From Methanolacinia petrolearia DSM 11571 (GTDB lineage: Archaea; Halobacteriota; Methanomicrobia; Methanomicrobiales; Methanomicrobiaceae), in assembly GCF_000147875.1 (NCBI RefSeq), contig NC_014507.1, positions 1,488,001-1,552,000 on the forward strand: DNA of 64,000 bases, read 5' to 3'. Below, piece by piece: positions 40,899-57,400 of this stretch. Under the pieces are notes generated by a model, which worked only from the letters and a program-made list of their open reading frames with translations, was not told where the DNA came from and made no database searches. The position numbers were made by a program, and so were the translations under genes. The first letter of the stretch is position 1. The number at the start of each line of letters is the position of its first letter.

Positions 40899-40935
40899 TA
40901 ACTAAAATTAATAGTTAGATTTTTAACAGTTGCAT
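40899..40935 (+). promoter_or_regulatory. Operator-like sequence before binding-protein operon
   Basis: The inverted repeat TAACTA (40899-40904) and TAGTTA (40912-40917) is followed by GATTTTTAACAGTTGC. The right half, AATAGTTAGATTTTTAACAG, resembles the shared operator before the FeoA gene (minus strand) and the PadR gene. It lies about 20-50 bases before the ATG at 40951. Confidence 0.5.
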
Positions 40936-40950
40936 ATCAAACCATTGCTG

Positions 40951-42084
40951 ATGAAAAACAACTTCCGCTTATGCATAATTGCCGGACTGATATTGATCAT
41001 AGCAATATTATGCATCTTTTTTTCTTTGCGGCCTGATACCGGCCCTTTGGAAAATAATACGACAGCAGAAAAAATCGTAATCACGGACGCTCCCGGCAGG
41101 GTGATTACACTTGATGAGCCCGCCCAAAGAATTGCGTGTACCCATTATTCCGTATCCGAAGCAATCCAGCTCGCCGGAGCATGGGACAAGGTAGTTGCAA
41201 GAGACGGATACTTATCGAATGAGAAATTTTATCCCGGTGTCGAAGACCTGCCTGTTATCTGCCCTGCCAGGAATCCGATGGATATCAATTACGAGGAGAT
41301 CATCGCGATCCATCCGGATGTTTTAATTCTGCCGAACTTCAGCTGGCTCGGAGATACCGACGAGATAATCGGCAAGCTTGAACCTGATGTGCACGTTGTC
41401 TTCGTCGATACATTAAACCCGGATACATTCTGCGACACTATCGAGACTATCGGAAAGATCGCCGGGACGGAGGACGAAGCCGGGGAATATATCGAATTTT
41501 ACAGGAGCATCTATGATCCTGTCGTGAGCATTACATCCGACATTTCGAAAGAAGATCGTCCTAATGTCTTCTTCAAGGCTTTTTCAGATGAAATTGACGA
41601 GATCAAGACGTACGGCAGTGAATTCCCCGGGGGAAATGAGCTCTTCAATGCCGCAGGCGTCAGGAATGTCGCGGAAGATCTGCCGATAAATTGTGCGGAT
41701 GTTGACGAAGAATGGCTTTTGGAGCAGGACATCGATGCCATTGCAGCCATATGCTGGGACAAAAAATATCCCGAGACGTTCGGGTATAATGTTTCGGACC
41801 CTTCCGCCGCGAGAATTCAGGCAGAAGAGATCAAAGACGAGATCGGTGAACTGGACGTCTTTTCAAATTCGAAGGCGGTTGAAGACGACGAGATCTATCT
41901 CCTGAACAATGAGATGACCTCCACTCCCAGGTATATTATTACGATAGCATACATGGCGAAATGGTTCCATCCCGACCTTTTCGAAGACCTCGACCCGAAG
42001 GCGCTCCACCAGGAATACCTGGACCGGTTCATACCCGGCGACTACAACCTATCGGAATGCGGACTGATGGTCTATCCCGATTAA
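40951..42084 (+). CDS. FecB/BtuF-type ABC substrate-binding protein 1
   Basis: A 377-residue protein anchored outside the membrane by an N-terminal hydrophobic helix. There is no lipobox Cys at a usual position. The mature part is a two-lobed periplasmic-binding fold of the iron-chelate/cobalamin type: ITDAPGRVITLDEPAQRIA at the entry, YEEIIAIHPDVLILP, DIDAIAAICWDKKYPE, and IAYMAKWFHPDLF near the end. It is about 45% similar by eye to the protein at 43252 and shares a partner permease. The ligand could be a metal chelate, corrinoid or other metal complex. The ATG at 40951 is preferred over an in-frame TTG at 40930; neither has a strong ribosome site. Confidence 0.85.
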   Translation: MKNNFRLCIIAGLILIIAILCIFFSLRPDTGPLENNTTAEKIVITDAPGRVITLDEPAQRIACTHYSVSEAIQLAGAWDKVVARDGYLSNEKFYPGVEDLPVICPARNPMDINYEEIIAIHPDVLILPNFSWLGDTDEIIGKLEPDVHVVFVDTLNPDTFCDTIETIGKIAGTEDEAGEYIEFYRSIYDPVVSITSDISKEDRPNVFFKAFSDEIDEIKTYGSEFPGGNELFNAAGVRNVAEDLPINCADVDEEWLLEQDIDAIAAICWDKKYPETFGYNVSDPSAARIQAEEIKDEIGELDVFSNSKAVEDDEIYLLNNEMTSTPRYIITIAYMAKWFHPDLFEDLDPKALHQEYLDRFIPGDYNLSECGLMVYPD

Positions 42085-42096
42085 ATGGTGAATAAA

Positions 42097-43122
42097 ATGA
42101 AAGAATTACCTGAAATCAAAGAATCACTTACAGGGATCTACGATATATCCCTGTCGCCGGTAAGGGCAAACGCTCTTGCGGCAGGTGCCGAACTCAGAAT
42201 ATTCGATCACCTGAACAGCCCGGTGACAGCGAAAAAAATTGCGGAAGAATGCAACTATTGTGCAGAAACGACCGAAGAATTCCTGAACGTACTTGTGGCA
42301 TGCGGTCTGCTCGAAAAGAAGAACAGCGAGTATCTCAACCGCCCGGACACAAGGCAGTTCCTCGTATCCGACAGCCCCACTTATTACGGCAAAATTCTGC
42401 TGCGTGAATACCACCGAATCTCGATGACCCCGGCGGAGATTATTGAAACCGTTAAAGGCGGTCCGGCCGGCCCGAAGGAAGAGGACGATATGGGCCTTGA
42501 GGAATTCTGGTCGGACTACGCCCGCTCGATTGCCAACTGGGAGCGTTCGGGTTCTGCGCAAAAACTCGGTGAGATAATTTCAAAACTCCCTCAATTCGAC
42601 TCCTTCGAACATATGCTCGATCTCGGAGGCGGGCCGGGACTGATGGGAATAGCGGTTCTGCAACATCACCCGTCAATGACCGGGGTCGTATTCGATCAGC
42701 CTGCCGTTGCGAAAGTAGCCGGAGAATTCATCAGCTATTACGGGCTGGACGCGAGAATGACAGTTATGGGAGGCAATTACCTGCAGGACTCTTTTGGAAC
42801 CGGCTACGATCTGATCCTCTGCAGTTGTACGCTGAACTTCGCTCTCGGGTGCATGGACGAGATGGTCCAAAAGATATATTATGCCCTGAATCCGGGCGGA
42901 GTATTCGCAAGCCTCCACGACGGGATCTTCAACGAAGGAACGGCCCCGGAATTTCACATTCTGAATATGATGTCAAGTGCATTTTCAGGATTCAACTGGG
43001 GGATCAAAAAAGGTCTTATCGCCGAATCGATGAAGAAAGCAGGGTTTGAAGAAGTAACCTCCGAATCGATCGATCTCGATGTCGGACCGTTCGATCTCGA
43101 CATAGCTGTAAAGGGATCATAA
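42097..43122 (+). CDS. SAM-dependent methyltransferase (O-methyltransferase fold)
   Basis: About 341 residues. The N-terminal winged-helix dimerisation domain (about 10-100: ALAAGAELRIFDHL, TAKKIAEECN, GLLEKKNSEY) precedes a class I methyltransferase domain with the SAM motif MLDLGGGPGLMGIAV (near 170-185) and ALNPGGVFASLHDG. The architecture matches O-methyltransferases of the hydroxyindole/caffeate type, but the substrate is unknown. It sits directly after binding protein 1 and before binding protein 2. That suggests it modifies the imported or exported ligand. GGTGA lies before the ATG at 42097; an ATG at 42085 abutting the preceding stop is the alternative. Confidence 0.85.
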   Translation: MKELPEIKESLTGIYDISLSPVRANALAAGAELRIFDHLNSPVTAKKIAEECNYCAETTEEFLNVLVACGLLEKKNSEYLNRPDTRQFLVSDSPTYYGKILLREYHRISMTPAEIIETVKGGPAGPKEEDDMGLEEFWSDYARSIANWERSGSAQKLGEIISKLPQFDSFEHMLDLGGGPGLMGIAVLQHHPSMTGVVFDQPAVAKVAGEFISYYGLDARMTVMGGNYLQDSFGTGYDLILCSCTLNFALGCMDEMVQKIYYALNPGGVFASLHDGIFNEGTAPEFHILNMMSSAFSGFNWGIKKGLIAESMKKAGFEEVTSESIDLDVGPFDLDIAVKGS

Positions 43123-43251: not shown

Positions 43252-44403
43252 ATGTTTCAAAAACCAGGAATATTCATAGCCATCTTTTTGGTTGTCGTTG
43301 CAATGACTGCAGCTATACTGTTGTTGACTACAGGTGAAGAAGAGAACGAAGCACTTCAGGCGGAAGACAGGATCACGATCACCGATGCATACGGGAGAGA
43401 GGTTACACTCGACGGCCCGGCCGAAAGAGTTGCATACTCGCATCACTCTCTAAGCGACTCGCTCAGGCTGATCGGGGCCTGGGACCAGGTCGTGGGGAGA
43501 GACGCGAATATAGACGACGAACACCTCTTCCCCGGCTTCGAGGATATTCCTGAAATATCCCAGAAAATGAATGCCATGGATCTCAACTATGAGGAGATCG
43601 TTGAAATTCATCCCGACGTCCTGATCCTCCCGAAATTCGACTGGTATACAGGGGCCGACGATATAATTCAGACACTCGAACCCGACATTCCGGTCGTCTT
43701 CCTTAACACTCTCGATCCGAGTCCGGAGATCTTCAACGAAACGATCCAGAAGCTCGGATTAATTACAGGAAATGAAGAGAGAGCAGACGAGTACCTGGAA
43801 TTTTATAACGGCGTCTACGATACGATCGTATCGAAAACCTCGCTTGTCGATCCTGAAGATCGTCCGCGTGTATTCTTCAGGGGAATCGGAAAAACATCTG
43901 CCGACCAGATTGTAACATACGGGAAAGACATGGAATGGTTCCAAAATTTTCTCGATGCGGCAGGTGCGGAGAATGTGGCAAAAGATCTGCCAATATCTTA
44001 CGGCGATGTCGATCGCGAGTGGCTGCTCGAACAGGATATCGACGTGATCGTTGTCAAATGCTGGGAAGAACGTTATCCCGGTGTTTTCGGTTATTCTGCA
44101 ACAGACCGCGGGGAAGCTATTGCAGGTGCCGAAGAGATTCGCAACGCGATCATGGAGATGGATGTCTTTTCAAATACCGATGCGGTCAGAAACGGCGACG
44201 TGTACCTTTTTGATGATTCGATGGACGCCACGCAGCGGAATATCGTCGGACTGGCCTATCTTGCAAAATGGCTTTATCCCGAAGAGTTCAGCGACCTCGA
44301 CCCCGAAGCAGTTCACCAGGAATATATCAGCCGTTTCATGGAGGCGGACTATAATCTCTCACAATCGGGACTGTTTGCATACCCGGCGGAGGCTGTGGTA
44401 TAG
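43252..44403 (+). CDS. FecB/BtuF-type ABC substrate-binding protein 2
   Basis: A 383-residue paralogue of the protein at 40951, with an uncleaved N-terminal anchor (IFIAIFLVVVAMTAAILLL) and an extracytoplasmic binding fold: ITDAYGREVTLDGPAERVA, YEEIVEIHPDVLILP, DIDVIVVKCWEERYPG, LAYLAKWLYPEEF. It lies upstream of the permease and ATPase and is probably the primary partner. Having two binding proteins for one permease widens or tunes ligand range. The tandem repeats just upstream indicate its own regulated promoter. Confidence 0.87.
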   Translation: MFQKPGIFIAIFLVVVAMTAAILLLTTGEEENEALQAEDRITITDAYGREVTLDGPAERVAYSHHSLSDSLRLIGAWDQVVGRDANIDDEHLFPGFEDIPEISQKMNAMDLNYEEIVEIHPDVLILPKFDWYTGADDIIQTLEPDIPVVFLNTLDPSPEIFNETIQKLGLITGNEERADEYLEFYNGVYDTIVSKTSLVDPEDRPRVFFRGIGKTSADQIVTYGKDMEWFQNFLDAAGAENVAKDLPISYGDVDREWLLEQDIDVIVVKCWEERYPGVFGYSATDRGEAIAGAEEIRNAIMEMDVFSNTDAVRNGDVYLFDDSMDATQRNIVGLAYLAKWLYPEEFSDLDPEAVHQEYISRFMEADYNLSQSGLFAYPAEAVV

Positions 44404-44450: not shown

Positions 44451-45527
44451 ATGGAAACAAATTTGAAAGGAAACGACGGCGGTTTTGACATATGCGAAGG
44501 CTATCACAGCTACAGGAGTAGAAAAACATTATTCATCATCGGACTTGTGGCTGCCATAATAATATGCATAGGAATAGCTGCATCCAGCGGTTCTGCCGAT
44601 GTGGCGCTGGCGGATGCATATAACTCAATTCTCGGAAAGATATTCCCCGAAAGTTTCGAGAGTTCATGGACGGCGGAGATCTGCCTGTGGAAACTCCGCT
44701 TCCCGAGAATATTCATGGCGCTTTTTACCGGAATTGCACTCGGCGTTGCAGGCTGTGCAATGCAGGCGACACTGAAGAACCCGCTTGCCGATCCCTATAT
44801 GCTCGGCGTGGCCTCGGCCGCAGGACTCGGGGCGACTATCGCGATCGTCTTCGGGGCGGGAATTCTTGCAGGGACATACGCTATTATCGGAAACGCATTT
44901 CTGTTTTCACTTATCGCCGCAGGAATTATTATCCTGATCGGCGAGAAGAAGGACGGTTCCGCGGAGGCGATGATCCTCACGGGAATAGCACTGATGTTCT
45001 TCTTCCAGGCGGTCACCACGTTTATCGCGTACTTCGCGGATTCGGAAGCGGTAAAGAGCGCTATGTTCTGGATGGTGGGAGATCTCGGTAAAGTCTCATG
45101 GGGCGATTTCTATTTCGTAATTCCCATCGTAGCAGTTGTCGTTCCCGTAATCGTATGGAAATCATGGGACCTGAATATTCTCGGCGGGGGCGACGAGAGT
45201 GCAACAAGTCTCGGGATAAACGTCAAGCATTTCAGGATCATGATCGTCGCCCTGTCCTCTCTCCTTGTGGCAGGAGTCGTAAGTTTTGTAGGTGCGATCG
45301 GCTTCATCGGCCTGGTTTCGCCCCATATCTGCCGGCTTATAATCGGAGGCGACAACAGGTTTCTGATACCGGCCTCGGGTCTTATGGGAGCGGTCTTCCT
45401 GATTATCGCCGATACTATTGCACGGACTGCCCTCTCGCCGGTAATTATTCCGGTCGGCGTAATCACCGCCTTTCTGGGGGTTCCGTTCTTTGTCTACCTG
45501 ATATTGTTCGGGAGGGCGAAATGCTGA
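44451..45527 (+). CDS. FecCD-type ABC permease
   Basis: A 358-residue inner membrane permease of the iron-chelate/cobalamin class (BtuC/FecCD). About ten hydrophobic segments follow a polar 30-residue N-terminus. Family hallmarks are LRFPRIFMALFTGIALGVAG, NPLADPYMLGVASAAGLGA, and VSFVGAIGFIGLVSPHICR, the coupling region that contacts the ATPase. It imports the ligand supplied by the upstream binding proteins. GGAG precedes the ATG by nine bases. Its last codons overlap the ATPase start by seven bases. Confidence 0.93.
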   Translation: METNLKGNDGGFDICEGYHSYRSRKTLFIIGLVAAIIICIGIAASSGSADVALADAYNSILGKIFPESFESSWTAEICLWKLRFPRIFMALFTGIALGVAGCAMQATLKNPLADPYMLGVASAAGLGATIAIVFGAGILAGTYAIIGNAFLFSLIAAGIIILIGEKKDGSAEAMILTGIALMFFFQAVTTFIAYFADSEAVKSAMFWMVGDLGKVSWGDFYFVIPIVAVVVPVIVWKSWDLNILGGGDESATSLGINVKHFRIMIVALSSLLVAGVVSFVGAIGFIGLVSPHICRLIIGGDNRFLIPASGLMGAVFLIIADTIARTALSPVIIPVGVITAFLGVPFFVYLILFGRAKC

Positions 45528-46291
45528 AGCTGAAGATTGAAAACCTCTCGCTTTCGTATGGGACGGAAAAGGTCCTGAAGAACATTTCGATGGAATTCGA
45601 AGAACCGGGAATAGTGGGCATCATCGGCCCCAATGGGGCGGGTAAGAGTACACTCCTCCGGTGCATCAACAATATACTTAAACCGCAGGCAGGAAGAGTG
45701 CTAATCGACGACAAGGATATCAGCAGGATGGAAGCAACGGAGATCGCGGGAAAGCTCGGGTACGTCCCGCAGGAATTTCCGGTGTCGTTCCTTTCGACTG
45801 TCTTCGATACCGTTCTGACCGGTCGCCGCCCGTACACCTCGTGGAGAATCGGACAGAAAGATCTGAAGATTGCAGCGGATGTCATAAAAATGCTGGATCT
45901 CGAAGATATCGCACTCAGGAATATATCCGAACTGTCGGGGGGCCAGCAGCAGCGGGTAATGATCGCGAGGGCATTAGCACAGCAGACCGGGATTCTGCTA
46001 CTTGACGAACCCACATCGAAACTGGATATCAGGCACCAGCTTGAGGTTATGGATATCATCAAAAAACTCTCGGCGGAAAAACAACTTCTCTCCATAATCG
46101 TCATGCACGACCTGAACCTGGCGTCGAGGTACACCGATAAAATCCTGATGCTGAAGTCGGGGCGGATTGCATATTCGGGAAGCCCGGCAGATGTCCTTAC
46201 ACGGGAAAATATCGGAGACGTCTACGGAGTCGATGCAAAAATAATTATTGAAGACGACCTGCCCCATGTAATTCCCGTCCAGCCGATCTGA
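45521..46291 (+). CDS. FecE/BtuD-type ABC ATPase
   Basis: A 256-residue cytoplasmic ATPase with Walker A GPNGAGKS (36-43), Q-loop VPQEF, signature LSGGQQQRV, Walker B ILLLDEPTSKLD and switch VMHDLNLA. The order and spacing match the iron-chelate/B12 importer group. It overlaps the permease stop (ATGCTGA), so the two are translated together. Upstream in-frame codons within the permease are not part of this gene. It completes importer 1 of the region. Confidence 0.95.
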   Translation: MLKLKIENLSLSYGTEKVLKNISMEFEEPGIVGIIGPNGAGKSTLLRCINNILKPQAGRVLIDDKDISRMEATEIAGKLGYVPQEFPVSFLSTVFDTVLTGRRPYTSWRIGQKDLKIAADVIKMLDLEDIALRNISELSGGQQQRVMIARALAQQTGILLLDEPTSKLDIRHQLEVMDIIKKLSAEKQLLSIIVMHDLNLASRYTDKILMLKSGRIAYSGSPADVLTRENIGDVYGVDAKIIIEDDLPHVIPVQPI

Positions 46292-46405: not shown

Positions 46406-46484
46406 TTTAGGCACTTGTTTTTACAAACCTAAAACCAACATAAGTACAATAGTTTGTTAACCAACCGTTGTAAAAACAACTATT
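46406..46484 (+). promoter_or_regulatory. Stacked inverted repeats before feoA-activase operon
   Basis: Three nested signals are visible. First, TTTAGG (46406-46411) and CCTAAA (46428-46433), which resembles DtxR/MntR-type metal-regulator boxes. Second, TTGT-N4-ACAA at 46415-46426 and again at 46468-46479. Third, AATAGTT (46448-46454) and AACTATT (46478-46484). On the minus strand, the part from about 46484 to 46446 aligns with the PadR upstream operator. Metal-responsive control fits the FeoA gene that follows but is inferred. Confidence 0.6.
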
Positions 46485-46532
46485 GACGAACTGCATATGA
46501 TGAGACCAGCAATACCGGTCAAAGGAGAAAAA

Positions 46533-46775
46533 ATGCTCAAGAAATTCATAGAACTGAAATACGGAGAAGAAGGGATTATCACGGATATCACCGGATTTGC
46601 GGCTGAGTTAAATGACATCGGAATCTACAAAGGCAAAACGATCCGGATGCTTTCAGTACTGCCGATCAGGAAGAACGTCATCGTGGCGATAATGGGACAA
46701 AGGATCATTCTGTCTCCGGAAATGGCCTCGGATATCCTTGTAGAACCGGCTATGGAGACGGAATTTGCGAGGTGA
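46533..46775 (+). CDS. feoA: FeoA-domain protein
   Basis: An 80-residue SH3-like FeoA protein (YGEEGIITDITG, LNDIGIYKGKTIRMLS, VAIMGQRIILSPEMASDI). FeoA normally assists the iron transporter FeoB, and FeoA-like domains also occur in metal regulators. No feoB is present: the next gene, seven bases later, encodes a large activase-type iron-sulfur ATPase. That pairing suggests a role in iron supply or regulation for that enzyme. I start at 46533, where GGAG lies five bases upstream. An ATG at 46497 has no ribosome site and would add 12 residues. Confidence 0.85.
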   Translation: MLKKFIELKYGEEGIITDITGFAAELNDIGIYKGKTIRMLSVLPIRKNVIVAIMGQRIILSPEMASDILVEPAMETEFAR

Positions 46776-46781: not shown

Positions 46782-49700
46782 ATGGATCAGGCAGTAACAG
46801 GGATAAAAGATAACCAGGCGGCAGCATTTGAAAACAATGTCATTTCAGGAATAAATCCGTCATACAGCATAGGAATCGATATAGGCTATTCATCTGTAAA
46901 GATCGCACTGGTCGACGACTACAATGACGTCGTATACACGGATTACGTCCTGCACAAGGGAAAGATCAGGGAAAAACTTACAAAAGTTCTGGCGAGGCTT
47001 TCGGAACTGTATGAAACCGGCGATATAATCTACGGCGGCATAACGGGAAGCGAAAGCAGAATACTCTCACCGATCTACGGTAAAAATCATGTAAAGGACA
47101 TCCCGGCGTTAATCGAAGGATGCACCAGGCAGGAACACGGTGCATGCTCGATTATGGATATAGGGGGGGAGAACGCCAGGTATATAACCGGTTTCGGGGA
47201 CGGCAGCAGATCAAACGTTGAAATATCGATGAACCCGAACTGCTCTGCAGGAACCGGTTCCTTCCTCGAAGAGCAGGTTTCAAGACTCAATCTTGATATC
47301 GGGGACTATTCGGCCTGTGCCGCCAAAAGCAAAACCATCCCGCGGATTGCAGGGAGATGCAGCGTCTTTGCGAAGACCGACATTATCCATCACCAGCAGG
47401 AAGGAGTTCCGGTTGAAGATATTCTCCAGGGGCTTGCCTATGCACTTGTAAGAAATTATCGCGGAGCGGTCGTCAGAAAACTGCCTGTCAGGGCCCCGGT
47501 CGTATTCACCGGGGGAGTTGCATTAAACGAGGCAATTGAAAAGGCAATCAAAGATGTCTTCAACCTGGGAGACGGAGAGCTTATTGTTCCCGGGATGTGC
47601 GCCGAAACCCAGGCAATCGGAGCAGCTATAATCGCCAAAAAAGACTGTCTCGGGTTGAATCTCAAGGCACTGAGAGGCGATCCCCGGCTCCTGAACGAAT
47701 GCAATAGTTACGAAGACCAGGATGTGAAACTTCCAGCCCTCGGAATTTTTGGAAATAACGACAGCAGAGAAAAGCATATCTGCAAACCCTTCAACCGCAG
47801 TAACGGAAAGATCAGGTGTTTTCTCGGGGTCGATACGGGTTCGACAAGCACGAATCTTGTATTGATCGACGAGGATAACGAGATCATCGCATACAGGTAC
47901 CTGCGTACACTCGGCGATCCTGTGAAGGCGGTCTTCACCGGCCTAAGGGAACTCGGAGACGAGTTAACCGGGACGGGAGACAACATCGAGATCGCCGGAG
48001 TAGGAACAACCGGGTCCGGACGATATATGATCGCCAGGACCATAGGAGCCGACGTAATAAAGGACGAGATTACTGCACAGGCGAAGGCGGCCTCGACAAT
48101 AGACAACACCACGGATACAATCTTTGAAATCGGAGGGCAGGATTCGAAGTTCATCAGCCTTAATGACGGAAGGGTAACCGATTTCCAGATGAACAAGATC
48201 TGTGCCGCAGGAACGGGATCATTCATTGAAGAGCAGTCGAACAAGTTCGAGATTCCCATAGACGAGTTCGGGGAGATCGCATTAAAAAGTAAAAAACCAG
48301 TCAACCTCGGGGAAAGGTGCACCGTTTTCATAGAGACGAGCATCGCATCCCGGCTTGCAGGCGGCACTCCTACGGAAGATATAGTATCCGGCCTGTGCTA
48401 TTCGATCGCAAAAAATTACCTCAACAGGGTCGTGGGACAGAAGAAGATCGGCGATAAAATCTTCCTGCAGGGCGGGATCGCATACAACCAGGGTGTCGTA
48501 AACGCCTTCAGGGCGCTGACAGGAAAAGAGGTGACCGTCCCCCCGTTCTTCAGCGTCACCGGGGCCTACGGCTCCGCACTGCTTACCAAAGAAGAGATCG
48601 GCACGAAAAAAACCGGCTTTAAGGGATTTTACCAGGACGAATCAGGGGATGTCAATGAAGCATCAAAAGAGCAGGAACCGGCCGTCGACAACGAACCCGA
48701 ATTCAGCAGAGCCGTAAACGACATCATCTTCGAAGGGTACGACGGAAAGATCGACCCGGCGAAGAAGACGATCGGAATGCCACGGGCCCTGTTCACCTAC
48801 GGGATGTACCCGATGTTCAGCGCATTCTTCAGGGCCCTCGGGTATAATGTCGTCCTCTCCGATCCCACTAATGAAGAGACGGTAAGACTGGGGCAGGAAT
48901 ACTCGCTGGACGAGACCTGCTACCCGGTCAAACTGGTAAACGGCCATGTGGCAGAGCTCATGAACAAAAACGTGGACTACATCTTTTTCCCGGATCTGTA
49001 CACTGTTCTTCACCCGGGCTCGCACTCGCGGCAGGATTTCGGCTGCCCGTACATGCAGCTCGCCTTCAAACTCGTAAACAGGGCGATGGAGCTCGACAAA
49101 AAAGGAATAAAACTCCTTTCGCCGACAATCGGCTTCAGTCTCGGGGAGGAATTCATGAAAAAGGGCTTCATGGATCTCGGCAGGCAGCTTGACAGGAGTC
49201 CTGAAGAAACAGGCAGAGGACTGGGATGCGGAATGGAAGCTTTCAATGCATTTGAAAAGAGGGTTGAAGAGAAAGGCAGGGAGATGGTTAAGGATCTAAA
49301 ACCGGACGAGAAGGCCTTCGTTCTGATCTCGAAGACATACGGAGTGGCAGATCCCGCACTGAATCTCGGGATTCCCGAAAAACTCAAAGAAATGGGTTAC
49401 AAAGTTCTTGCTTTCTACAATCTTCCGGAAAGCGACATCTCGAAAGAGCACCCGAATATGTTCTGGCCGTTCGGACAGCATATACTGGAGGCCGCACAGG
49501 TCGTACGCAGTCACCCGAATCTCTACGCAATATTCCTGACCCACCACGGCTGCGGACCGGACACTGTGTTCACGCATTATTTCAGGGATATTATGGGGGA
49601 TAAGCCCTACCTGAACATAGAAATCGACGAACATTCGTCGGGTGTCGGCGTAACTACGAGGCTTGAAGCATTCGTAAACAGCCTGAGGCACATCAGCGAA

Positions 49701-50870
49701 GGAGACGCAGAAGATATGAATGTATACCCCGGCCGTGTTGCCCATAATGAAACGGATATCAAAACGGACATTTCGGATCTTCCCGAAAATGCAAGGGTTT
49801 ACATTCCAAACGTTTACCCCTATTCGCAATTATTTTGCGAATTCCTGAAGACATCGGGGATCGACTGCAGGATTATCCCGGAAACCGACGGACGATCGCT
49901 CGATGAAGGGCGAAAACACATAATGACCAATGAATACCTCTCCATGACCGCTCTTATAGGAGATGTGCTGAGCATACCGGGAATCCGTGAACACGATATG
50001 AACCCGGGATTCATTTATATTCCCCAGGCGGAGGGTGCCGAAGTGGACGGGCAGTACAACCGTATGATAAGAACAGTCCTCGACAGGGAAAGATTAAGGG
50101 GAGTTGGAATCATCGCCCCGTATTATGAGGATCTTATATCGGGAAACAAAAGGCATCTCGACCAGATCTTCCTGATCCTTGTTGCAGGAGATCTTATCCG
50201 GACTGCACATTATGCTTCGAGGGATAATTACCTCAAAAAGATTACCCGGATGATTGACGACGGAAATCTGAACATCGAATCGCTGCTTGCTCTTTCGAAA
50301 AAGATTCTCTCCGAACTGAGAGTGAGTGAATTCAAAGGGGCGATATTCGCCGGCGGAGAATTGTTCGTCCTCTATAATGATTACCTGAATGCCTTTACCT
50401 TCAGGGAAATCGAAGACAAAGGCTACCGGGTTGCTTATGCACCACTAAGCGAGTGCATGTGGCATTTCTGGACTGATATCATTAAACGGGCGGACGAGGA
50501 GAAAAGAGAACTTCTGCTGCCGATGATCGATCTCCTTGAAAGCTACATCTCGGAGATGAACATCTCGCTTGAAGAGATGAGTCCCTTTGAAGACAACCCG
50601 TCAGGTCTCATAGAGAGAGCGGATGCATCCACCGGCTATTACGCAGGGGCTTTCGGAAGATACAGGGAGTCCAAAATTCTCGGGGAGATGAAAGGCATAG
50701 ACGGCATCATCAATGTCTCATCGCTGTATGAAAATACGGCGATCACTCTCAATACACTTCACAAGGGATTTGACGGCAGGAATTCCCTGCCGGTGTTAAA
50801 CCTTTCATTCGACGGAAATGAAAACGAGAACGACAAGGTCAGGATCGAATCGTTCCTGTATTATCTCTAA
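46782..50870 (+). CDS. Acyl-CoA dehydratase activase-type fusion protein
   Basis: A 1362-residue cytosolic protein. Two actin-like BadF/BcrA/HgdC ATPase domains are in tandem: about 28-295 (SIGIDIGYSSVKIALVDD, NCSAGTGSFLEEQ) and about 345-610 (GVDTGSTSTNLVLIDEDN, CAAGTGSFIEEQ, GGQDSKF). Then come a DUF2229-like region (about 660-870: IGMPRALFTYGMYPMFSAFF, DETCYPVKLVNGH) and an HgdB/double-cubane-like region (about 880-1360, with THHGCGPD and ECMWHFW). Known relatives hydrolyse ATP to inject low-potential electrons into a partner, or into their own FeS cluster. All parts appear to be in one chain here. The substrate is unknown. It is in an operon with feoA and a small Cys protein. Confidence 0.9.
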   Translation: MDQAVTGIKDNQAAAFENNVISGINPSYSIGIDIGYSSVKIALVDDYNDVVYTDYVLHKGKIREKLTKVLARLSELYETGDIIYGGITGSESRILSPIYGKNHVKDIPALIEGCTRQEHGACSIMDIGGENARYITGFGDGSRSNVEISMNPNCSAGTGSFLEEQVSRLNLDIGDYSACAAKSKTIPRIAGRCSVFAKTDIIHHQQEGVPVEDILQGLAYALVRNYRGAVVRKLPVRAPVVFTGGVALNEAIEKAIKDVFNLGDGELIVPGMCAETQAIGAAIIAKKDCLGLNLKALRGDPRLLNECNSYEDQDVKLPALGIFGNNDSREKHICKPFNRSNGKIRCFLGVDTGSTSTNLVLIDEDNEIIAYRYLRTLGDPVKAVFTGLRELGDELTGTGDNIEIAGVGTTGSGRYMIARTIGADVIKDEITAQAKAASTIDNTTDTIFEIGGQDSKFISLNDGRVTDFQMNKICAAGTGSFIEEQSNKFEIPIDEFGEIALKSKKPVNLGERCTVFIETSIASRLAGGTPTEDIVSGLCYSIAKNYLNRVVGQKKIGDKIFLQGGIAYNQGVVNAFRALTGKEVTVPPFFSVTGAYGSALLTKEEIGTKKTGFKGFYQDESGDVNEASKEQEPAVDNEPEFSRAVNDIIFEGYDGKIDPAKKTIGMPRALFTYGMYPMFSAFFRALGYNVVLSDPTNEETVRLGQEYSLDETCYPVKLVNGHVAELMNKNVDYIFFPDLYTVLHPGSHSRQDFGCPYMQLAFKLVNRAMELDKKGIKLLSPTIGFSLGEEFMKKGFMDLGRQLDRSPEETGRGLGCGMEAFNAFEKRVEEKGREMVKDLKPDEKAFVLISKTYGVADPALNLGIPEKLKEMGYKVLAFYNLPESDISKEHPNMFWPFGQHILEAAQVVRSHPNLYAIFLTHHGCGPDTVFTHYFRDIMGDKPYLNIEIDEHSSGVGVTTRLEAFVNSLRHISEGDAEDMNVYPGRVAHNETDIKTDISDLPENARVYIPNVYPYSQLFCEFLKTSGIDCRIIPETDGRSLDEGRKHIMTNEYLSMTALIGDVLSIPGIREHDMNPGFIYIPQAEGAEVDGQYNRMIRTVLDRERLRGVGIIAPYYEDLISGNKRHLDQIFLILVAGDLIRTAHYASRDNYLKKITRMIDDGNLNIESLLALSKKILSELRVSEFKGAIFAGGELFVLYNDYLNAFTFREIEDKGYRVAYAPLSECMWHFWTDIIKRADEEKRELLLPMIDLLESYISEMNISLEEMSPFEDNPSGLIERADASTGYYAGAFGRYRESKILGEMKGIDGIINVSSLYENTAITLNTLHKGFDGRNSLPVLNLSFDGNENENDKVRIESFLYYL

Positions 50871-50890
50871 GTATGCCGTGGTGCGATGAA

Positions 50891-51151
50891 ATGAAAAAAT
50901 ATCATTCTCCCCCGTTCGAATCCGGATATCATTCAGGAGAAATTAAAGAGGGAAATGAGACTATTTCGATCGAAGGCTGCAAAATGACATGCAGAAAGAA
51001 AGTGATCGATCATACCGGCAATATTGTGCAAAAAGAGGTATCGATAACGGATTTGGGAGTGAAAAAGAAGAACGGACATTGTTACCGTTTATATGATGTA
51101 GAAGAGACCGAAACGGCAGCAGAGGTGATCAAAAGAGACAGCGAAATATGA
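50891..51151 (+). CDS. Small Cys-containing hypothetical protein
   Basis: An 86-residue soluble protein (92 if the ATG at 50873 is used; GGTG before 50891 favours the shorter form). It contains CKMTC and a later Cys in NGHCYRLYDVEE, with mainly polar residues and no signal peptide. It immediately follows the activase-type gene and is surely in the same operon. I do not recognise a family. The Cys pair might bind metal or act in electron transfer with the activase, which is only suggested by position. Confidence 0.6.
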   Translation: MKKYHSPPFESGYHSGEIKEGNETISIEGCKMTCRKKVIDHTGNIVQKEVSITDLGVKKKNGHCYRLYDVEETETAAEVIKRDSEI

Positions 51152-51194
51152 ATCTGATGTCATTTACCTCATAATTATTGACCCGGGTTTTTTT

Positions 51195-51490: not shown

Positions 51491-51557
51491 TTAATGGATA
51501 TCGATCCCGAATCGATATTAACAATCCAGAAATTCTGTCTCAATAATCATAACTTTT

Positions 51558-51634
51558 ATACCATAGTTAATACCATAGTTATTATTCAACGGTTTGAAAA
51601 CCAACTGTGTGCTTTTGAACAGTTTGAATAATAA
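51558..51634 (+). promoter_or_regulatory. Operator/leader region of the padR operon
   Basis: A direct repeat, ATACCATAGTTA twice (51558-51580), is followed by a perfect 11-base inverted repeat, TTATTATTCAA (51579-51589) and TTGAATAATAA (51624-51634). A perfect inner repeat GGTTT/AAACC lies at 51591-51602. The span 51575-51606 also aligns with the FeoA upstream operator. It ends 26 bases before the PadR ATG, as expected for autoregulation. Confidence 0.65.
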
Positions 51635-51659
51635 CACATGGACCGCAATATTATTTGTT

Positions 51660-52139
51660 ATGAAAGAAGTATGGAAATTTGCTCCTGAAAACGGGAAAGA
51701 GAGAGGATTTCTGACAATCCTCATACTTCATTCACTCGACAGGGAGCCCAAATCCGGTTACGATCTCCTGAAAGAGATTGAAGAAAAAACAAACGGGGCA
51801 TGGGTTCCGAACAAGGGAACTTTATATCCCATATTAAAATCTCTTGAAGAAGAGGGGCAGATCCAGGTAAAAGAGATCGGGAAACGCTCCAAGAGGATCT
51901 ACGAACTGACGGATTCGGGAAGGCAGACCATATCTGATCTAAGGGATAAAAAAGAAGTATCCGAGGCACGTGTTAATTTCTTCAAAAAAATGCACCTGGA
52001 AATCTTCGGGGAAGAGAACATCTCGTTTATCAATCTCATGATGGACATGAGATTCTATGTCGAGGATCTACCCGCAGAAAAAAAAGAGAAAGCAATCGGG
52101 ATGATTTCCAGTACTTTTGAAGAGATTAAACGGCTTTAA
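51660..52139 (+). CDS. PadR-family transcriptional regulator
   Basis: A 159-residue protein with an N-terminal winged helix of the PadR type: ILHSLDREPKSGYDLLKEIEEKT, GTLYPILKSLEEEGQIQV and RSKRIYELTDSGRQTI. A helical C-terminal dimerisation part follows. PadR proteins usually repress their own operon and release DNA on binding a ligand. The ATG at 51660 gives the family-typical N-terminus; an extension to 51594 overlaps the operator. It is the first gene of the run TrmO-like, FmdE, methyltransferase and ABC importer, so it probably controls them. Confidence 0.92.
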   Translation: MKEVWKFAPENGKERGFLTILILHSLDREPKSGYDLLKEIEEKTNGAWVPNKGTLYPILKSLEEEGQIQVKEIGKRSKRIYELTDSGRQTISDLRDKKEVSEARVNFFKKMHLEIFGEENISFINLMMDMRFYVEDLPAEKKEKAIGMISSTFEEIKRL

Positions 52140-52187
52140 GAGAAAAATAACAATAACATATTGCGGCCATCGGAGATTTCACCAGAT

Positions 52188-52754
52188 ATGAACGATGAAG
52201 CCGCCGTACAGGCAGGATGCCTGAATGAATTTGTTTTAAACCCCGTGGGAATCATAAAAAACGGGATTAAAACTCCGCCGCTTGTTGCCGGAGAACAGGG
52301 ACTGACCGTCAATGAATCATGCGAATCCGCGATTGAAAAGATGGCGAACTCCCCTGAAACCCTTTCCGAAATCATACTGAATGACGAACTGGAGGAACTT
52401 CTCGACGGAATAGACGACTATTCTCACCTGGTTATCGTCTACTGGGGGCATGAAATCGGAGATCAGGGAAGGAAGCTCAAAAGAATCCATCCTGCAGGTC
52501 AGGAGGATTACCCGCTTAAAGGAATATACTCCACTTTCAGCCCGGCAAGACCTAACCCTGTACTGGTTACGGTAGTAAAGCTAATCGAAAGAGACGGCCC
52601 CAGGCTGACGGTCCGGGGGCTGGATGCAATAGACAACAGCCCTGTCCTCGACATCAAACCGTATGTCGCTGAATTATTCTCTTTTAAAAACACTCAAATC
52701 CCCGGTTGGATTACAAAAATTCTCGAAGAATTCGTAGATGAAAGCAGGAAGTGA
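52188..52754 (+). CDS. TrmO/TsaA-like (UPF0066) protein
   Basis: A 188-residue protein of the TrmO/UPF0066 beta-barrel family, with LNPVGIIKNG at the N-terminus and the conserved YSHLVIVYWGH, GIYSTFSPARPNPVLVTVVKL and LDIKPYVAEL. Characterised members methylate the t6A nucleotide of tRNA using S-adenosylmethionine. Others, found next to metal or molybdopterin genes, have unknown substrates. Its setting in a metal-type ABC operon makes a non-tRNA substrate conceivable. I prefer the ATG at 52188 (GGAG 12 bases upstream) over a TTG at 52161. Its stop lies four bases before the FmdE start. Confidence 0.88.
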   Translation: MNDEAAVQAGCLNEFVLNPVGIIKNGIKTPPLVAGEQGLTVNESCESAIEKMANSPETLSEIILNDELEELLDGIDDYSHLVIVYWGHEIGDQGRKLKRIHPAGQEDYPLKGIYSTFSPARPNPVLVTVVKLIERDGPRLTVRGLDAIDNSPVLDIKPYVAELFSFKNTQIPGWITKILEEFVDESRK

Positions 52755-52758
52755 TCTT

Positions 52759-53592
52759 ATGACGGCTATTAAGGAAATGACAATGGGAGAAGAATTTTGT
52801 TCGGATTTTTTCAACGACGAAGATCTTGAAGACCTGAAACAAAATCCCCGCTCAAAGTTTATCGAAGCGATTCGGAATATGGATGCGGCGACATGCCTCG
52901 TCAAAACCGCCGAGATACACGGCCATTTCTGCCCGGGAAGCGCTCTCGGCGTGATGGCATCCCTTTATGGATTCTCCCTCCTCGGGGACGAAGCAATCAG
53001 TTCGGACGGGATAATGGAAGACCTGCTCGCGATCGCAGAAGTAAATGCATGCTTCGCAGACGGCATACAGGCAGTCTCGGGCTGTACGCTCGGAAACAAC
53101 TCTCTAATCTACCGTGATCTCGGTAAACATGCGGTAACCTTCGCAGTTCGCGGAAAAGAAGAAGGAATACGAATAAGAGTTCGCCCTGAATTCATGGACT
53201 ACATCATTAAAGAAGTCCCCGAATTCTACCCCCTGATGGAGAAGGTCATAATGAGACGCGAGGGCGGCCCTTCGGAACTTAAAAGATTCAGGCAAAAAGG
53301 CCGCGAAGCAGCTTTCGTAATAATAAAAAAACCGTTCGAAGATCTTTTCGAGGCGAAAACCGTGGTCCCCGACATCCCGGACTATGCACCGATTACAGGC
53401 AGTTTCGTCTGCCCCGAATGCGGAGAACAGGTCATGGCAACAAAGGTCTGGAAGACCGGCCTGCATAAAAGAAAATGCTTCGATTGTATCGGAAGATATT
53501 TTGAACTTGACGGAAGCGGAATCAGAAAAAAAGACCTCCGGCCGGAGAAGAAAGTCAAAAAACAGAATCACGGACCGGATAAATTCCTGTAG
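52759..53592 (+). CDS. FmdE family protein
   Basis: A 277-residue protein. The N-terminal FmdE domain has the diagnostic HGHFCPGSALGVMASLYGF (about 54-72) and later VNACFADGIQAVSGCTLGNN, whose Cys/His residues can hold a metal. The C-terminus bears a four-Cys zinc-ribbon-like motif (CPEC with CFDC about 25 residues later). FmdE was named for co-purification with formylmethanofuran dehydrogenase, but its function is not settled. Many homologues neighbour molybdate, tungstate or metal-chelate transporters, as here. The start at 52759 follows AGGAAGTGA. It is tightly linked to the TrmO-like and methyltransferase genes. Confidence 0.92.
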   Translation: MTAIKEMTMGEEFCSDFFNDEDLEDLKQNPRSKFIEAIRNMDAATCLVKTAEIHGHFCPGSALGVMASLYGFSLLGDEAISSDGIMEDLLAIAEVNACFADGIQAVSGCTLGNNSLIYRDLGKHAVTFAVRGKEEGIRIRVRPEFMDYIIKEVPEFYPLMEKVIMRREGGPSELKRFRQKGREAAFVIIKKPFEDLFEAKTVVPDIPDYAPITGSFVCPECGEQVMATKVWKTGLHKRKCFDCIGRYFELDGSGIRKKDLRPEKKVKKQNHGPDKFL

Positions 53593-53603
53593 GAGGGCTG
53601 TTT

Positions 53604-54221
53604 ATGGATTCTGCTAATAATCGCTCTCATAACTGCCGGACGGGTGAGAGAGATCACCACCGTGGAAGAGGCCCGACCAGCTTCTGGATGCAAGATCCCG
53701 AACTTATTTTTACGGAACTGGATTTAAAGCATGGAGACGTCTTTCTCGATCTCGGGTGCGGTACCGGCGACTACTCGATCTGTGCCGCCGAAGAGATCGG
53801 AGAATCGGGCATCGTTTATGCTGCGGACATAAACCGGAACCTGATAGACGACCTGCTCGAAAATTCAGGACAACTCGGGTTGAACAACATAAAAGGAGTC
53901 ATAAGCGATATCCACGAAACCCTGCCGTTTGAAGATTCTTCAATAGATGTATGCCTGATCTCGACGGTTCTTCACTCGGTAGATCTTGAAAACTGCGGGA
54001 AAGCTCTATTCACCGAAATCGCCAGGATATTAAAACCGCAGGGACGTCTGTTCGTGATCGAATGCAAAAAGGAAGAGACCGGTTTCGGTCCCCCGCTCCA
54101 GATGCGGCTCTCACCGGAAGCGATTAAATCTTATGCATCTTCCTGCGGCTTAAACTGGATCTCAATGACGGATCTCGGCTATAATTACATGATTCGATTC
54201 TCACCGGAAGAGGGGCCGTAA
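53604..54221 (+). CDS. Class I SAM-dependent methyltransferase
   Basis: A 205-residue methyltransferase of the UbiE/type 11 kind. The SAM motif FLDLGCGTGDYSICAA is near 48-63, followed by YAADINRN, LPFEDSSIDVCLISTVLHSV and ILKPQGRLFVIECKK. The N-terminal 30 residues are His/Arg/Asn-rich (DHHRGRGPTSFW), a feature seen in transporter-linked members. The substrate is unknown. Its stop and the next start share a base (TAATG), so it is coupled to the binding-protein gene. The first importer cluster also contains a methyltransferase. Confidence 0.9.
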   Translation: MDSANNRSHNCRTGERDHHRGRGPTSFWMQDPELIFTELDLKHGDVFLDLGCGTGDYSICAAEEIGESGIVYAADINRNLIDDLLENSGQLGLNNIKGVISDIHETLPFEDSSIDVCLISTVLHSVDLENCGKALFTEIARILKPQGRLFVIECKKEETGFGPPLQMRLSPEAIKSYASSCGLNWISMTDLGYNYMIRFSPEEGP

Positions 54222-55447
54222 TGAAGCAGGCGATGTTCTTAATCCTCGTAATCCTCCTGATCTTTGCAGCCGTTCCGGGTTGCACGCAGACCGGCGGAAC
54301 CGGGGATATCCAACAGGTTTCCGATGATGACTACAGGATTGTCACCGACAGCAGGGGAGTCGAAGTAAAACTACCCGTCGATATCGAAAGGGTTGCAACG
54401 GTATCCGACGGTCTCATCGAAGAAGTGATGTACATTCTCGGAGTCGACGACAGGATCGTCGCCATCGGATCGGAAGGCCTTCTTTCATCCGCAAAATCCG
54501 GGTATTCATATCCACTTGACGACGGGACGAATGTAACCGCTGCCGGAGGGAACAATGTCGCAACAGTTCTTTCACCGGGGCTGGACGACCTTCCCCTCTT
54601 CGTCGATTACGGCGTTGCCATGAACTACGAAACTCTCGCGGCTGCCGATCCCGATGTAGTCATCCTTCGTCTCGGCAGTTCCGCATTCCTTTCATGCGAG
54701 GATGAGAATGCAGAGAAGAGCATCGAAAAGATTGAGTCGCTCGGAATACCGGTAGTCGTCCTCTACAGCCCCAACTGCTATGAAGATTCAGATCCTACAG
54801 CGATATCCGACGAGATCGAAATAATCGGCCGGGTCTTCGGGAAAGAAGACGAAGCAGAAGATATTGCAGCAATCCTTGAATCGATGAAGAACGACATACA
54901 GGAAAGAACCGCATCCGTCGGCGAAGACGAGAAAAAAGACGTCCTCGTACTCGGCCTCTCATCCTCGTACAGGACGGAGACCGCGGCAGGAATCGCATGG
55001 GGACTGAAAACGACCGAGTCCTACATGATTGAAAACCTGATAAATGCAAGGAATGCATTCCGCTCCGATGCAGGGAGTTTCCAGGTTATCAACACGGAAC
55101 AGATCCTTTCCATGGACCCCGACGTAATAATTCTCGGGACCGCATCAGGATATCACCCGCCGGGAGAACTCTATAATGCGACCTATTACAAGAACCTCCG
55201 TGAATTGCGGGCCGTTAAAGATCATAACGTTTCATCGCTCCCATACGCACCAAGGAACGCCGCAAAAAGACTGGAGTATCCCATCGACCTGATGGTGACG
55301 GCAAAAGCGGTGTATCCCGAACTCTTCGAAGATATCGATCTCAACGAATGGATTCTTTCATTCTACCAGGATGTCTACGGGGTCGATTCCGGTAAAGCGG
55401 CCGAACTGCGTTCCGCACAGCTTATGGACTGGTGTATCGGTGAGTAA
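54221..55447 (+). CDS. FecB/BtuF-type ABC substrate-binding lipoprotein
   Basis: A 408-residue lipoprotein (lipobox AAVPGC, Cys21) with a chelate-binding fold: IVTDSRGVEVKLPVDIERVA, YETLAAADPDVVILRLG and LSMDPDVIILGTASG. It is only distantly similar to the two binding proteins at 40.9 and 43.2 kb and is longer, so the ligand probably differs. Its FmdE and TrmO neighbours hint at a molybdenum-, tungsten- or other metal-related ligand, but this is not shown by sequence. Confidence 0.9.
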   Translation: MKQAMFLILVILLIFAAVPGCTQTGGTGDIQQVSDDDYRIVTDSRGVEVKLPVDIERVATVSDGLIEEVMYILGVDDRIVAIGSEGLLSSAKSGYSYPLDDGTNVTAAGGNNVATVLSPGLDDLPLFVDYGVAMNYETLAAADPDVVILRLGSSAFLSCEDENAEKSIEKIESLGIPVVVLYSPNCYEDSDPTAISDEIEIIGRVFGKEDEAEDIAAILESMKNDIQERTASVGEDEKKDVLVLGLSSSYRTETAAGIAWGLKTTESYMIENLINARNAFRSDAGSFQVINTEQILSMDPDVIILGTASGYHPPGELYNATYYKNLRELRAVKDHNVSSLPYAPRNAAKRLEYPIDLMVTAKAVYPELFEDIDLNEWILSFYQDVYGVDSGKAAELRSAQLMDWCIGE

Positions 55448-55509
55448 CGACTCTACATCCGCAGGCCGTTCGCAGAGATGAAACAGGTTGCACGGGGAAA
55501 TTAACAGAA

Positions 55510-56589
55510 ATGACCGAAACCACGGAGTTCAGGCAGCATATAACAGACCTGGGATATGATATAAAGAACGGGTTTGTCGAAGGGAGAAAGATAGCGGTTT
55601 TACTTGTTATCTTCTTCATTTTAATTATATCCGCATCGGTTGCCGTAATTCTCGGTACCTACGACATAACGATTCCGGAAGTCGCCCGGACCATCTTAAC
55701 GCACCTCACCTTCGGGAACGTCGAAGAAATCCCGAAAACACAGGACACGATTATATGGGATATCAGGCTTCCGAGAGTTCTTCTTGCTATATTCGTTGGC
55801 GGAGCTCTCGCAATCTCGGGCGCAGTCTTCCAGGGTGTGTTCAGGAATCCGCTCGTCGAGCCGTATATCCTGGGTGTTTCGTCAGGTGCTGCATTCGGTG
55901 CGGCTCTCGCGATCGTTTTCCCTGCAATATTTTTCTCGGTTCAGCTCTCCGCATTTGCATTCGGATCTATGGCAGTCGGCATGGCATACCTGCTCTCGCG
56001 TGTAAGAGGTGAAACCCCGGTCGTAACGCTTGTGCTTGCGGGAATTATAATCGGGTCCATCTTTTCCGCACTGGTATCCCTGCTGAAGTACATCTCGGAC
56101 GATTCGGCACTGAGAGAGATCGTCTTCTGGCTCATGGGCGGATTTTATTATGCGTCATGGAGCGACGTATCGCTACTCGCTCCGGCCGTCGTCATATGCC
56201 TTATTATAATCTGGATACTGGGCTGGAAACTGAATATCCTGTCAATGGGAGACGAAGAGGCAATTACTCTCGGGATAAACCCGGAAAAATACAAACTCAT
56301 ATTAATCGCACTTGCGACGGCAATTACCGCATTTGCAGTATCTTTCGTAGGAATTATTGCATGGGTGGGGCTCATGATGCCTCATGCATCGAGGCTGATC
56401 CTCGGCCCTGACAACAGGTTCGTGATCCCCGCCGCATTCATGATGGGCGGATTCTACCTGATAGTCTGCGATACACTTGCAAGAACTCTTACAAGTGCCG
56501 AGGTCCCCGTGGGAATCATCGCTTCGATCCTCGGGGCCCCGTACCTGTGCTATCTCCTTAGAAACAAAGGAAAAGAGATATTCGGGTGA
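55510..56589 (+). CDS. FecCD-type ABC permease
   Basis: A 359-residue membrane permease with about ten hydrophobic segments. Hallmarks are IRLPRVLLAIFVGGALAISGAV, NPLVEPYILGVSSGAAFGAAL, LMGGFYYASWSDV and VSFVGIIAWVGLMMPHASR. It follows the binding-protein gene by 62 bases and precedes the ATPase by four. It belongs to the same class as the permease at 44451 but is clearly separate in sequence. Confidence 0.93.
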   Translation: MTETTEFRQHITDLGYDIKNGFVEGRKIAVLLVIFFILIISASVAVILGTYDITIPEVARTILTHLTFGNVEEIPKTQDTIIWDIRLPRVLLAIFVGGALAISGAVFQGVFRNPLVEPYILGVSSGAAFGAALAIVFPAIFFSVQLSAFAFGSMAVGMAYLLSRVRGETPVVTLVLAGIIIGSIFSALVSLLKYISDDSALREIVFWLMGGFYYASWSDVSLLAPAVVICLIIIWILGWKLNILSMGDEEAITLGINPEKYKLILIALATAITAFAVSFVGIIAWVGLMMPHASRLILGPDNRFVIPAAFMMGGFYLIVCDTLARTLTSAEVPVGIIASILGAPYLCYLLRNKGKEIFG

Positions 56590-56593
56590 ATTC

Positions 56594-57400
56594 ATGATCG
56601 ACGCAGACGATATTCGATTCTCGTACGGCAACCACCCTGTTCTCTCCGGCGTCTCTTTTCACGTGGACGAAGGAGAACTCTGCGGACTCTTCGGGCCCAA
56701 CGGTGCAGGCAAGACGACACTTTTCAGGTGCTGCCTGGGATTTCTGGAATTGCAGGGAGGAAGGATCTCCATCAACGGTGAACCGACCACCGGCAAAAGA
56801 ATTGAAGACCTGGCAAAGATCGTATCCTATGTCCCGCAGGAGCATAAACCGCCGTTCCCGTATCTTGTAAAGGAGATCGTTCTCATGGGCAGGACTCCCC
56901 ACATGGGAGGAATATTCGGCTTGAAACGAAGAGACAAGGAGATCGCAATGGACAATCTTGATATCCTGGGGATCCCGGATCTCTCCGATCGGCCCTACAA
57001 TCAGCTCTCGGGCGGCCAGCGCCAGATGGTCCTGATGGCACGGGCGCTTGCACAGGATACTCCGGTACTATTTCTCGACGAACCGACAAGCTCTCTTGAT
57101 TTTCAGAACCAGATGAAGATCTGGAGACTGATGCGTGAGATCGCAGAGGACGGAAAGACAATCATCGCATGCAGCCACGACCCGAACCATGTATCCTGGT
57201 TCTGCGACAGGGTGGTGGTAATAGGAAACGGCGGAGTTGTTGCGAACGGTGCACCTTCGGACGTTATCTGCGAGGATGTCCTGTCAAAGATCTACGGGAA
57301 CAGCTGTTCGGTTAGCACTGTCGACAATATCAGGATTGTGATACCCGGCGATCTCCTGCGGAAAAATGAAACTGCTAAAAAATTATCGCGTTTTGGTTAG
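56594..57400 (+). CDS. FecE/BtuD-type ABC ATPase
   Basis: A 268-residue ATPase with Walker A GPNGAGKT (34-41), Q-loop VPQEHKPPF, signature LSGGQRQMV, Walker B VLFLDEPTSSLD and switch ACSHDPNHV. The start at 56594 (ATG four bases after the permease stop) fits the family. In-frame codons further upstream lie inside the permease. It is the last gene of the padR operon and converges with carB, with a 24-base gap. Confidence 0.95.
   Translation: MIDADDIRFSYGNHPVLSGVSFHVDEGELCGLFGPNGAGKTTLFRCCLGFLELQGGRISINGEPTTGKRIEDLAKIVSYVPQEHKPPFPYLVKEIVLMGRTPHMGGIFGLKRRDKEIAMDNLDILGIPDLSDRPYNQLSGGQRQMVLMARALAQDTPVLFLDEPTSSLDFQNQMKIWRLMREIAEDGKTIIACSHDPNHVSWFCDRVVVIGNGGVVANGAPSDVICEDVLSKIYGNSCSVSTVDNIRIVIPGDLLRKNETAKKLSRFG

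Follow-up and report, generated by a model that had tools for sequence, protein, structure and literature searches.

Gene content and organization of the operon

The window studied here is a 64-kb stretch of DNA from Methanolacinia petrolearia DSM 11571, whose genome consists of a single 2,843,290-base contig. The window starts at base 1488001 of that contig, and positions are those of the window unless another locus is named. At 51660-57400, reading of the open reading frames (ORFs) and Pfam searches identified seven genes, all with products above the Pfam curated cut-offs, whose cluster we propose may serve the import and processing of a metal chelate:

51660..52139, + strand, PadR-family regulator (Pfam PadR 1.7e-19)
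52188..52754, + strand, TrmO_N-like beta-barrel protein (Pfam TrmO_N 3.3e-24), with Phe at the position of the S-adenosylmethionine (SAM or AdoMet) Arg
52759..53592, + strand, FmdE (Pfam FmdE 3.4e-35), with metal site H55/H57/C59/C99 (numbered from 52756) and a four-Cys zinc finger
53604..54221, + strand, MT, class I SAM methyltransferase (Methyltransf_31 2.2e-20, best among several models; Methyltransf_11 matches too)
54221..55447, + strand, BP3, FecB-type lipoprotein binding protein (Peripla_BP_2 2.1e-20)
55510..56589, + strand, PERM3, FecCD permease (Pfam FecCD 8.8e-94)
56594..57400, + strand, ATP3, FecE/BtuD-type ATPase (ABC_tran 6.9e-31)

A preliminary description of this DNA, made from its letters alone, had proposed one operon of six parts. 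We count seven genes, and the operon itself stands, with gaps of 4-62 bp and a 1-bp overlap on a single strand. PadR and TrmO are separated by 48 bp (TrmO ATG at 52188), TrmO and FmdE by 4 bp if FmdE starts at ATG 52759 (they overlap by 17 bp with ATG 52738), and FmdE and MT by 11 bp; MT and FecB overlap by 1 bp, and gaps of 62 and 4 bp separate FecB from FecCD and FecCD from the ATPase. The same gene order is found in other genera, so it is not due to chance. BP3, PERM3 and ATP3 bring Peripla_BP_2, FecCD and ABC_tran together within the operon, the composition of a FecBCD/BtuCD-F type II ATP-binding cassette (ABC) importer. On the opposite strand, a long ORF (57425-60592) lies 24 bp downstream of ATP3. 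An Rfam scan of the whole window gave no matches, and a sigma-70 promoter and terminator scan was set aside, its results being near chance and its models unsuited to archaea. Elsewhere the host genome carries a second TrmO-FmdE gene pair (C1:42910-43918, L067) and, in total, four TrmO_N and four FmdE matches.

A shared operator and the larger cluster

Alignment of the PadR leaders of related methanogens outlined a conserved block in which an AACNGTT-like palindrome occurs three times at a 15-bp period. Across the 2.84-Mb host genome the zero-mismatch triad occurs at 40910, 46448 and 51588 only, and an 18-position triad score of at least 16 is reached by three matches in the window versus none in 3.2 Mb of Markov-random sequence. 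The operator claim is based on these zero-mismatch sites and on the 18-position score; no enrichment was seen with up to one mismatch (3+5 matches vs. 5+4 for the reversed control) or with a loose triad pattern (102/126 vs. 112/129 for the control). Similar operators precede PadR and the ACT gene described below in L036 and L037; they also stand ahead of BP1 in L184, a locus from the L037 genome, and ahead of the PadR genes of L075 and L076. The PadR gene has, in its own promoter, the conserved palindromic operator of an autoregulated PadR-family operon and is probably controlled in that way. A four-part version of the site, matched with one mismatch (L178, host C1:493890-493940), lies ahead of genes for a PadR paralogue and an ABC exporter, consistent with the triad being a PadR operator.

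The operon is one third of a larger unit of ~16 kb, 40951-57400, and the boundaries first drawn at 51660-57400 were therefore too narrow. The shared operator and the conserved neighbourhood join two further units (40951-51151) to it, and the whole would form a single PadR regulon of three adjacent transcription units, holding two FecBCD importers and three binding proteins. Its remaining features are:

40910..40946, + strand, operator triad of AACNGTT-like 7-mers with 15-bp period, 4 bp ahead of the BP1 start
40951..42084, + strand, BP1, FecB-type binding protein (Pfam Peripla_BP_2 6.3e-36)
42085..43122, + strand, O-methyltransferase with dimerisation domain (Pfam Methyltransf_2)
43252..44403, + strand, BP2, FecB-type binding protein, by homology; a close relative adjoins PERM1 in L037
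44439..45527 (start approximate), + strand, PERM1, FecCD-type permease, by homology
45521..46291, + strand, ATP1, FecE/BtuD-type ATPase, by homology
46448..46484, + strand, operator triad, 12 bp ahead of the FeoA-like gene
46497..46775, + strand, FeoA-domain protein (Pfam 5e-12)
46782..50870, + strand, ACT, 1362 aa, in which two BadF-type, ATP-driven activase domains are fused to a DUF2229/dehydratase-like part
50873..51151, + strand, DGC-domain protein (Pfam 2.9e-10)
51588..51624, + strand, operator triad in the PadR leader, 35 bp ahead of the PadR start

A relative of the O-methyltransferase is present in FmdE-FecBCD loci of several family-f9 genomes, and relatives of the DGC protein (35-67%) lie behind ACT in L076 and L037. 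Separately, a dispersed repeat rich in GC, parts of which are 74-93% alike, occupies intergenic positions at 15639, 37380-37544, 40458-40820 and 51228-51509 of the window, with copies directly ahead of the PadR promoter and ahead of BP1.

Conservation in methanogens and sulfate reducers

ACT immediately precedes PadR, and TrmO, FmdE and MT follow, in L035, L036 and L037, and the same arrangement is found in Methanolobus vulcani (L075; one genome with L035), Methanospirillum stamsii (L076) and Methanogenium cariaci (L099). The assembly of L099 contains a frameshift, and this locus served only for aligning PadR leaders, for its TrmO row and for context. Window-type FmdE (at least 59% identity) occurs in 6 of 246 genomes of the phylum, and full-length ACT in four, all within those six; two more genomes of the phylum hold only a partial ACT match, at 31-32%. 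A tree was built from the 118 FmdE sequences of the fetched loci, of which 80 are named; it places the window in a supported 26-row group (SH-aLRT 98; two row pairs come from the same genomes) that comprises methanogens and sulfate reducers and is surrounded by the TrmO~FmdE fusions of other phyla. MT is nearby in 15 of the 21 named window-type loci, TrmO in 13, PadR in 9 and ACT in 8; these counts, like those given below for NikR, the Lar genes and the fusions in sister loci, are lower bounds, as many loci stop at contig ends, and one genome contributed both L039 and L081. The neighbourhood comparison bears out the earlier suggestion that the combination is conserved in anaerobes, here methanogens and sulfate-reducing bacteria. 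Methanolobus vulcani also has a second full-length ACT gene, which overlaps a FecCD gene (L205:4752-11078, G152:C3).

Fusions, exchangeable importers and the cytoplasmic proteins

In sister loci, which lie outside the window branch, the TrmO-like protein and FmdE are mostly one polypeptide (49 of the 59 named ones, and L089); the fusion also occurs in L036, L037 and other loci of the phylum. PadR and FmdE share one open frame in L038, L080 and L086, and MT is fused to TrmO in five Methanothrix-type loci. Judged from the gene sequences, these fusions tie the cytoplasmic proteins (TrmO-like, FmdE and MT) into one module. Across phyla the TrmO~FmdE fusion is the closing gene of FecBCD operons. 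The importer part varies: most methanogens have FecBCD, Methanolobus has Nik/Opp-type ABC genes, sulfate reducers have a TonB receptor with an RhtX/FptX-like carrier, and the Methanothrix-type loci have NikA/CntA-like binding proteins. A constant cytoplasmic set combined with changing importers suggests that an imported compound is processed. A structure model of TrmO~FmdE (predicted TM score, pTM, 0.57) was not used.

The window FmdE has the FHGHxC-type motif, the later Cys and the C-terminal Cys4 zinc finger of family PF02663, and its metal ligands H55, H57, C59 and C99 are kept in 116-117 of the 118 FmdE sequences. The same ligands held zinc or nickel in the crystal of an FmdE homologue (PMC2954224). 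That 2010 structure paper also places most FmdE genes near metal-ion transporters.

Escherichia coli TrmO contacts AdoMet through Q25, R92, D125 and K136, and the R92A and K136A changes abolish its activity (PMC4132733). The window protein does not retain this full set of four residues. The counterpart of R92, located on the AF_0241 alignment, is Phe in the window, Cys or Tyr in 17/17 window-type rows (15 independent ones, given duplicate genomes) and Arg in 56 of 58 other rows; L083 and one L041 TrmO were omitted from the count, as they lack the motif, and L083 shows Cys in another alignment. The AdoMet-site Asp and Lys are retained in all TrmO rows, and the QGRF stretch with Gln was found only in six rows not of the window type. 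Because the Arg essential in E. coli TrmO is lost in the window branch, SAM use by its TrmO-like protein appears doubtful, and with it the earlier statement that this protein and the methyltransferase both use SAM. In the archaea analysed so far, m6t6A was not detected (PMC4132733). The TrmO-like domain of the window branch is probably no ordinary SAM methyltransferase.

ACT and a proposed mechanism

ACT has eight invariant Cys across 11 sequences. Its BadF ATPase domains (E 3.6e-68) each carry two of them, C154/C193 and C474/C513, as in coenzyme A (CoA)-dehydratase activases, and we take these four to be [4Fe-4S] cluster ligands; three further invariant Cys lie in the DUF2229/dehydratase-like half. 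For MT, an assignment as arsenite methyltransferase was rejected (score 69.7 vs. a cut-off of 263).

With these linked parts we put forward a mechanism as a proposal. PadR would bind the three triads and keep the units repressed until its signal arrives. A metal-ligand complex would be caught by the binding proteins and imported by the FecBCD complexes. ACT might then supply low-potential electrons that reduce the imported chelate, and MT, perhaps with the O-methyltransferase too, might alkylate the ligand so that the metal is released. FmdE would take the metal in its His-x-His-x-Cys...Cys site and hand it to nickel enzymes, with the TrmO-like domain as an FmdE partner or binding domain. The account as a whole, a PadR-controlled import and processing regulon for a nickel or nickel/cobalt chelate, has in our judgement an even chance of being correct.

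Which metal may be carried

We consider the cargo most likely to be a metal chelate of nickel, or of nickel and cobalt, and hold this with middling confidence. NikR lies near FmdE in 22 of the 59 sister loci, in Bacteroidota, Spirochaetota, Bacillota, Bipolaricaulota, a Pacearchaeota metagenome-assembled genome and one haloarchaeon, and in L117, L131 and L151 the order is NikR-TonB-FecBCD-TrmO~FmdE. In the spirochaete locus L108, FecBCD-TrmO~FmdE is followed without gaps by LarC-LarE-LarB, and Lar genes are also nearby in L101, L122 and L126. In all, four loci have LarB and LarC and three have LarE; Pfam identified these families in L122, and clustering of the sequences extended the assignment to L108. 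The genes larB, larC and larE are nickel-pincer cofactor genes. Methanolobus vulcani has a gene for the sirohydrochlorin nickelochelatase CfbA, the third copy in its genome, between the Nik/Opp-type genes and ACT. In the host itself, a paralogous FecBCD operon (L200:7730-17195, host C1:511-521 kb) combines paralogues of BP3, PERM3 and ATP3, including four BP3-like binding proteins, with SAM methyltransferases and a CooC-like ATPase (best PDB match 3kje, E 2.2e-14). A FecBCD-type importer, NiuBDE, imports nickel and cobalt in Helicobacter pylori (PMC5140060). The nickel genes around relatives and the conserved FmdE ligands agree with the link to metals suggested in the preliminary description.

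Several observations weigh against nickel or against parts of this scheme. No NikR gene lies in the flanks of any of the 21 named window-type loci, so the metal is read from the sister branches, and iron, molybdate and a corrinoid are possible candidates as well. The sole NikR of the host genome is at C1:103104, away from the operon; NikR operators there were not sought. A comparison of exact 6-mer palindromes ahead of the sister operons yielded no common NikR-like operator, and GTGTTA-N15-TAACAC, upstream in two sister loci, is within the shuffle range. No chelator-making gene was identified, and the roles given to ACT and MT are guesses. The fold of BP3 matches molybdate, iron and nickel binders alike: with its predicted model (predicted local distance difference test, pLDDT, 83.6), MolA, CeuE and YiuA score about equally (Z 26.0-27.5). 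Other points favour particular alternative cargoes.

A tentative and rather unlikely refinement is an undescribed reductive salvage of a cofactor or metallophore, in which a nickel or cobalt organic compound made by neighbours would be imported and dismantled by ACT, acting as an ATP-driven iron-sulfur reductase, together with the methyltransferase and an FmdE/TrmO-like metal acceptor. If true, it would be a new oxygen-free route for freeing metal from a chelate, used by methanogens and sulfate reducers.

Scavenging of Fe(III)-siderophores is unlikely in our view, though it draws on several of the contrary points. Here the complex would be imported and reduced by ATP-driven ACT, its ligand modified by the methyltransferases, and the FeoA-like protein would serve ferrous iron. 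A FeoA domain within the regulon, a DtxR-type regulator that adjoins the module in L075 and L088, sulfate-reducer TonB receptors closest to siderophore receptors and accompanied by RhtX/FptX-type major facilitator superfamily (MFS) carriers, and the likeness of BP3 to Fe-siderophore binders all point towards iron. Methanogens usually have dissolved Fe(II) at their disposal, which we count against this explanation, as we do the NikR and Lar genes of the sister loci; no siderophore synthesis genes were recognised among the genes examined. The zinc and nickel held by FmdE homologues (PMC2954224) argue in the same direction.

Salvage of a corrinoid or another metallo-tetrapyrrole also seems improbable. 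It would have a cobamide or F430-like compound enter by BtuCD-like import, ACT reduce the metal or ring, MT modify the compound and FmdE take the metal. In Desulfonema magnum (L078) cobalamin riboswitches at 5803-5986 and 13549-13732 flank MFS-FmdE-ACT-MT and a TonB receptor, and PERM3 and ATP3 have their best scores with BtuC and corrinoid-ATPase models, though below the cut-off; the extra CfbA copy in Methanolobus and the large cleft in FmdE dimers (PMC2954224) fit as well. However, no cobalamin riboswitch was found in the other 23 bacterial loci at the gathering threshold, nor in L085, L087, L093 and L100 at a laxer Rfam threshold, and the NikR/Lar association speaks against it.

Least probable is uptake of molybdate or tungstate for formylmethanofuran dehydrogenase through a MolBCA-type importer and FmdE: the founding FmdE was co-transcribed with the Mo-formylmethanofuran dehydrogenase (PMC2954224), MolA (3psa) is among the structures closest to BP3 (E 4.3e-19; Z 27.3, root-mean-square deviation 3.2, 306 aligned) and L122 has a molybdenum cofactor (Moco) riboswitch downstream of TrmO~FmdE, but only 13 of 208 FmdE genes adjoin fmd genes (PMC2954224), Pfam searches of 12 of the 15 cluster proteins showed no Fmd or Fwd subunit (BP2, PERM1 and ATP1 being assigned by homology), that Moco riboswitch is the only one in 24 bacterial loci and precedes other genes, and the molybdate or tungstate cargo implied by the tests first proposed gains no specific support beyond the BP3-MolA fold likeness, which is near that with nickel- and iron-binding proteins.

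Relation to known systems

FecBCD metal import and the proximity of FmdE to metal transporters are already known. As far as our literature searches go, which found no paper on this gene combination, there is no description of the triad-controlled PadR regulon, of the three fusion types, of the missing AdoMet Arg or of the link to NikR and lar genes; the preliminary description was largely right in calling the function undescribed, apart from the transporter proximity already on record (PMC2954224).

Among the closest counterparts is NiuBDE of H. pylori (CeuE/FecDE type), which likewise combines a FecBCD-type importer and several binding proteins with a nickel/cobalt cargo, here a presumed one, and whose CeuE-Ni structures are among the fold neighbours of BP3. 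It differs in that NiuB (ceuE) is under NikR, and the available text mentions no TrmO/FmdE/MT/ACT set (PMC5140060). Among the PF02663 structures, 2gvi shares its metal ligands and zinc finger with the window FmdE, whereas the zinc finger is missing from 2glz and the metal ligands from 3d00; no TrmO fusion and no PadR, MT or ACT context was found in the available parts of that paper (PMC2954224). The larB, larC and larE genes form an unbroken operon with FecBCD-TrmO~FmdE in L108, but neither the window operon nor its window-type relatives have lar genes alongside.

ACT resembles the activases of 2-hydroxyacyl-CoA dehydratase and benzoyl-CoA reductase in its two BadF domains, both Cys pairs and a DUF2229/HGD-D-like part. 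Unlike them it is one 1362-aa chain inside a putative metal-import regulon, and it misses all equivalog cut-offs and passes that of the CoA_E_activ domain model alone. The window TrmO-like protein shares with the bacterial tRNA m6t6A methyltransferase TrmO (YaeB) the beta-barrel family (score 95.2 vs. a cut-off of 93.25) and the Asp and Lys, but lacks the AdoMet Arg and is tied to FmdE.

According to a 2011 survey of two Methanothermobacter genomes, the nickel ABC transporter had yet to be identified (PMC3087415). The cluster bears on how methanogens obtain nickel, as it offers a delimited regulon whose operator can be checked, together with a TrmO-FmdE fusion that recurs beside NikR and lar genes. 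It would also provide a first testable function for FmdE and the archaeal TrmO-like proteins, both families of unknown role.

Other features of the window

Two further observations concern other parts of the window. Three or four diverged copies of a secreted-lipoprotein gene alternate with ABC-exporter-like genes at 2050-8236, and inverted repeats at 32109-32396 and 36433-36736 (121 and 94 nt; 92% and 86% complementary) flank ~4 kb.

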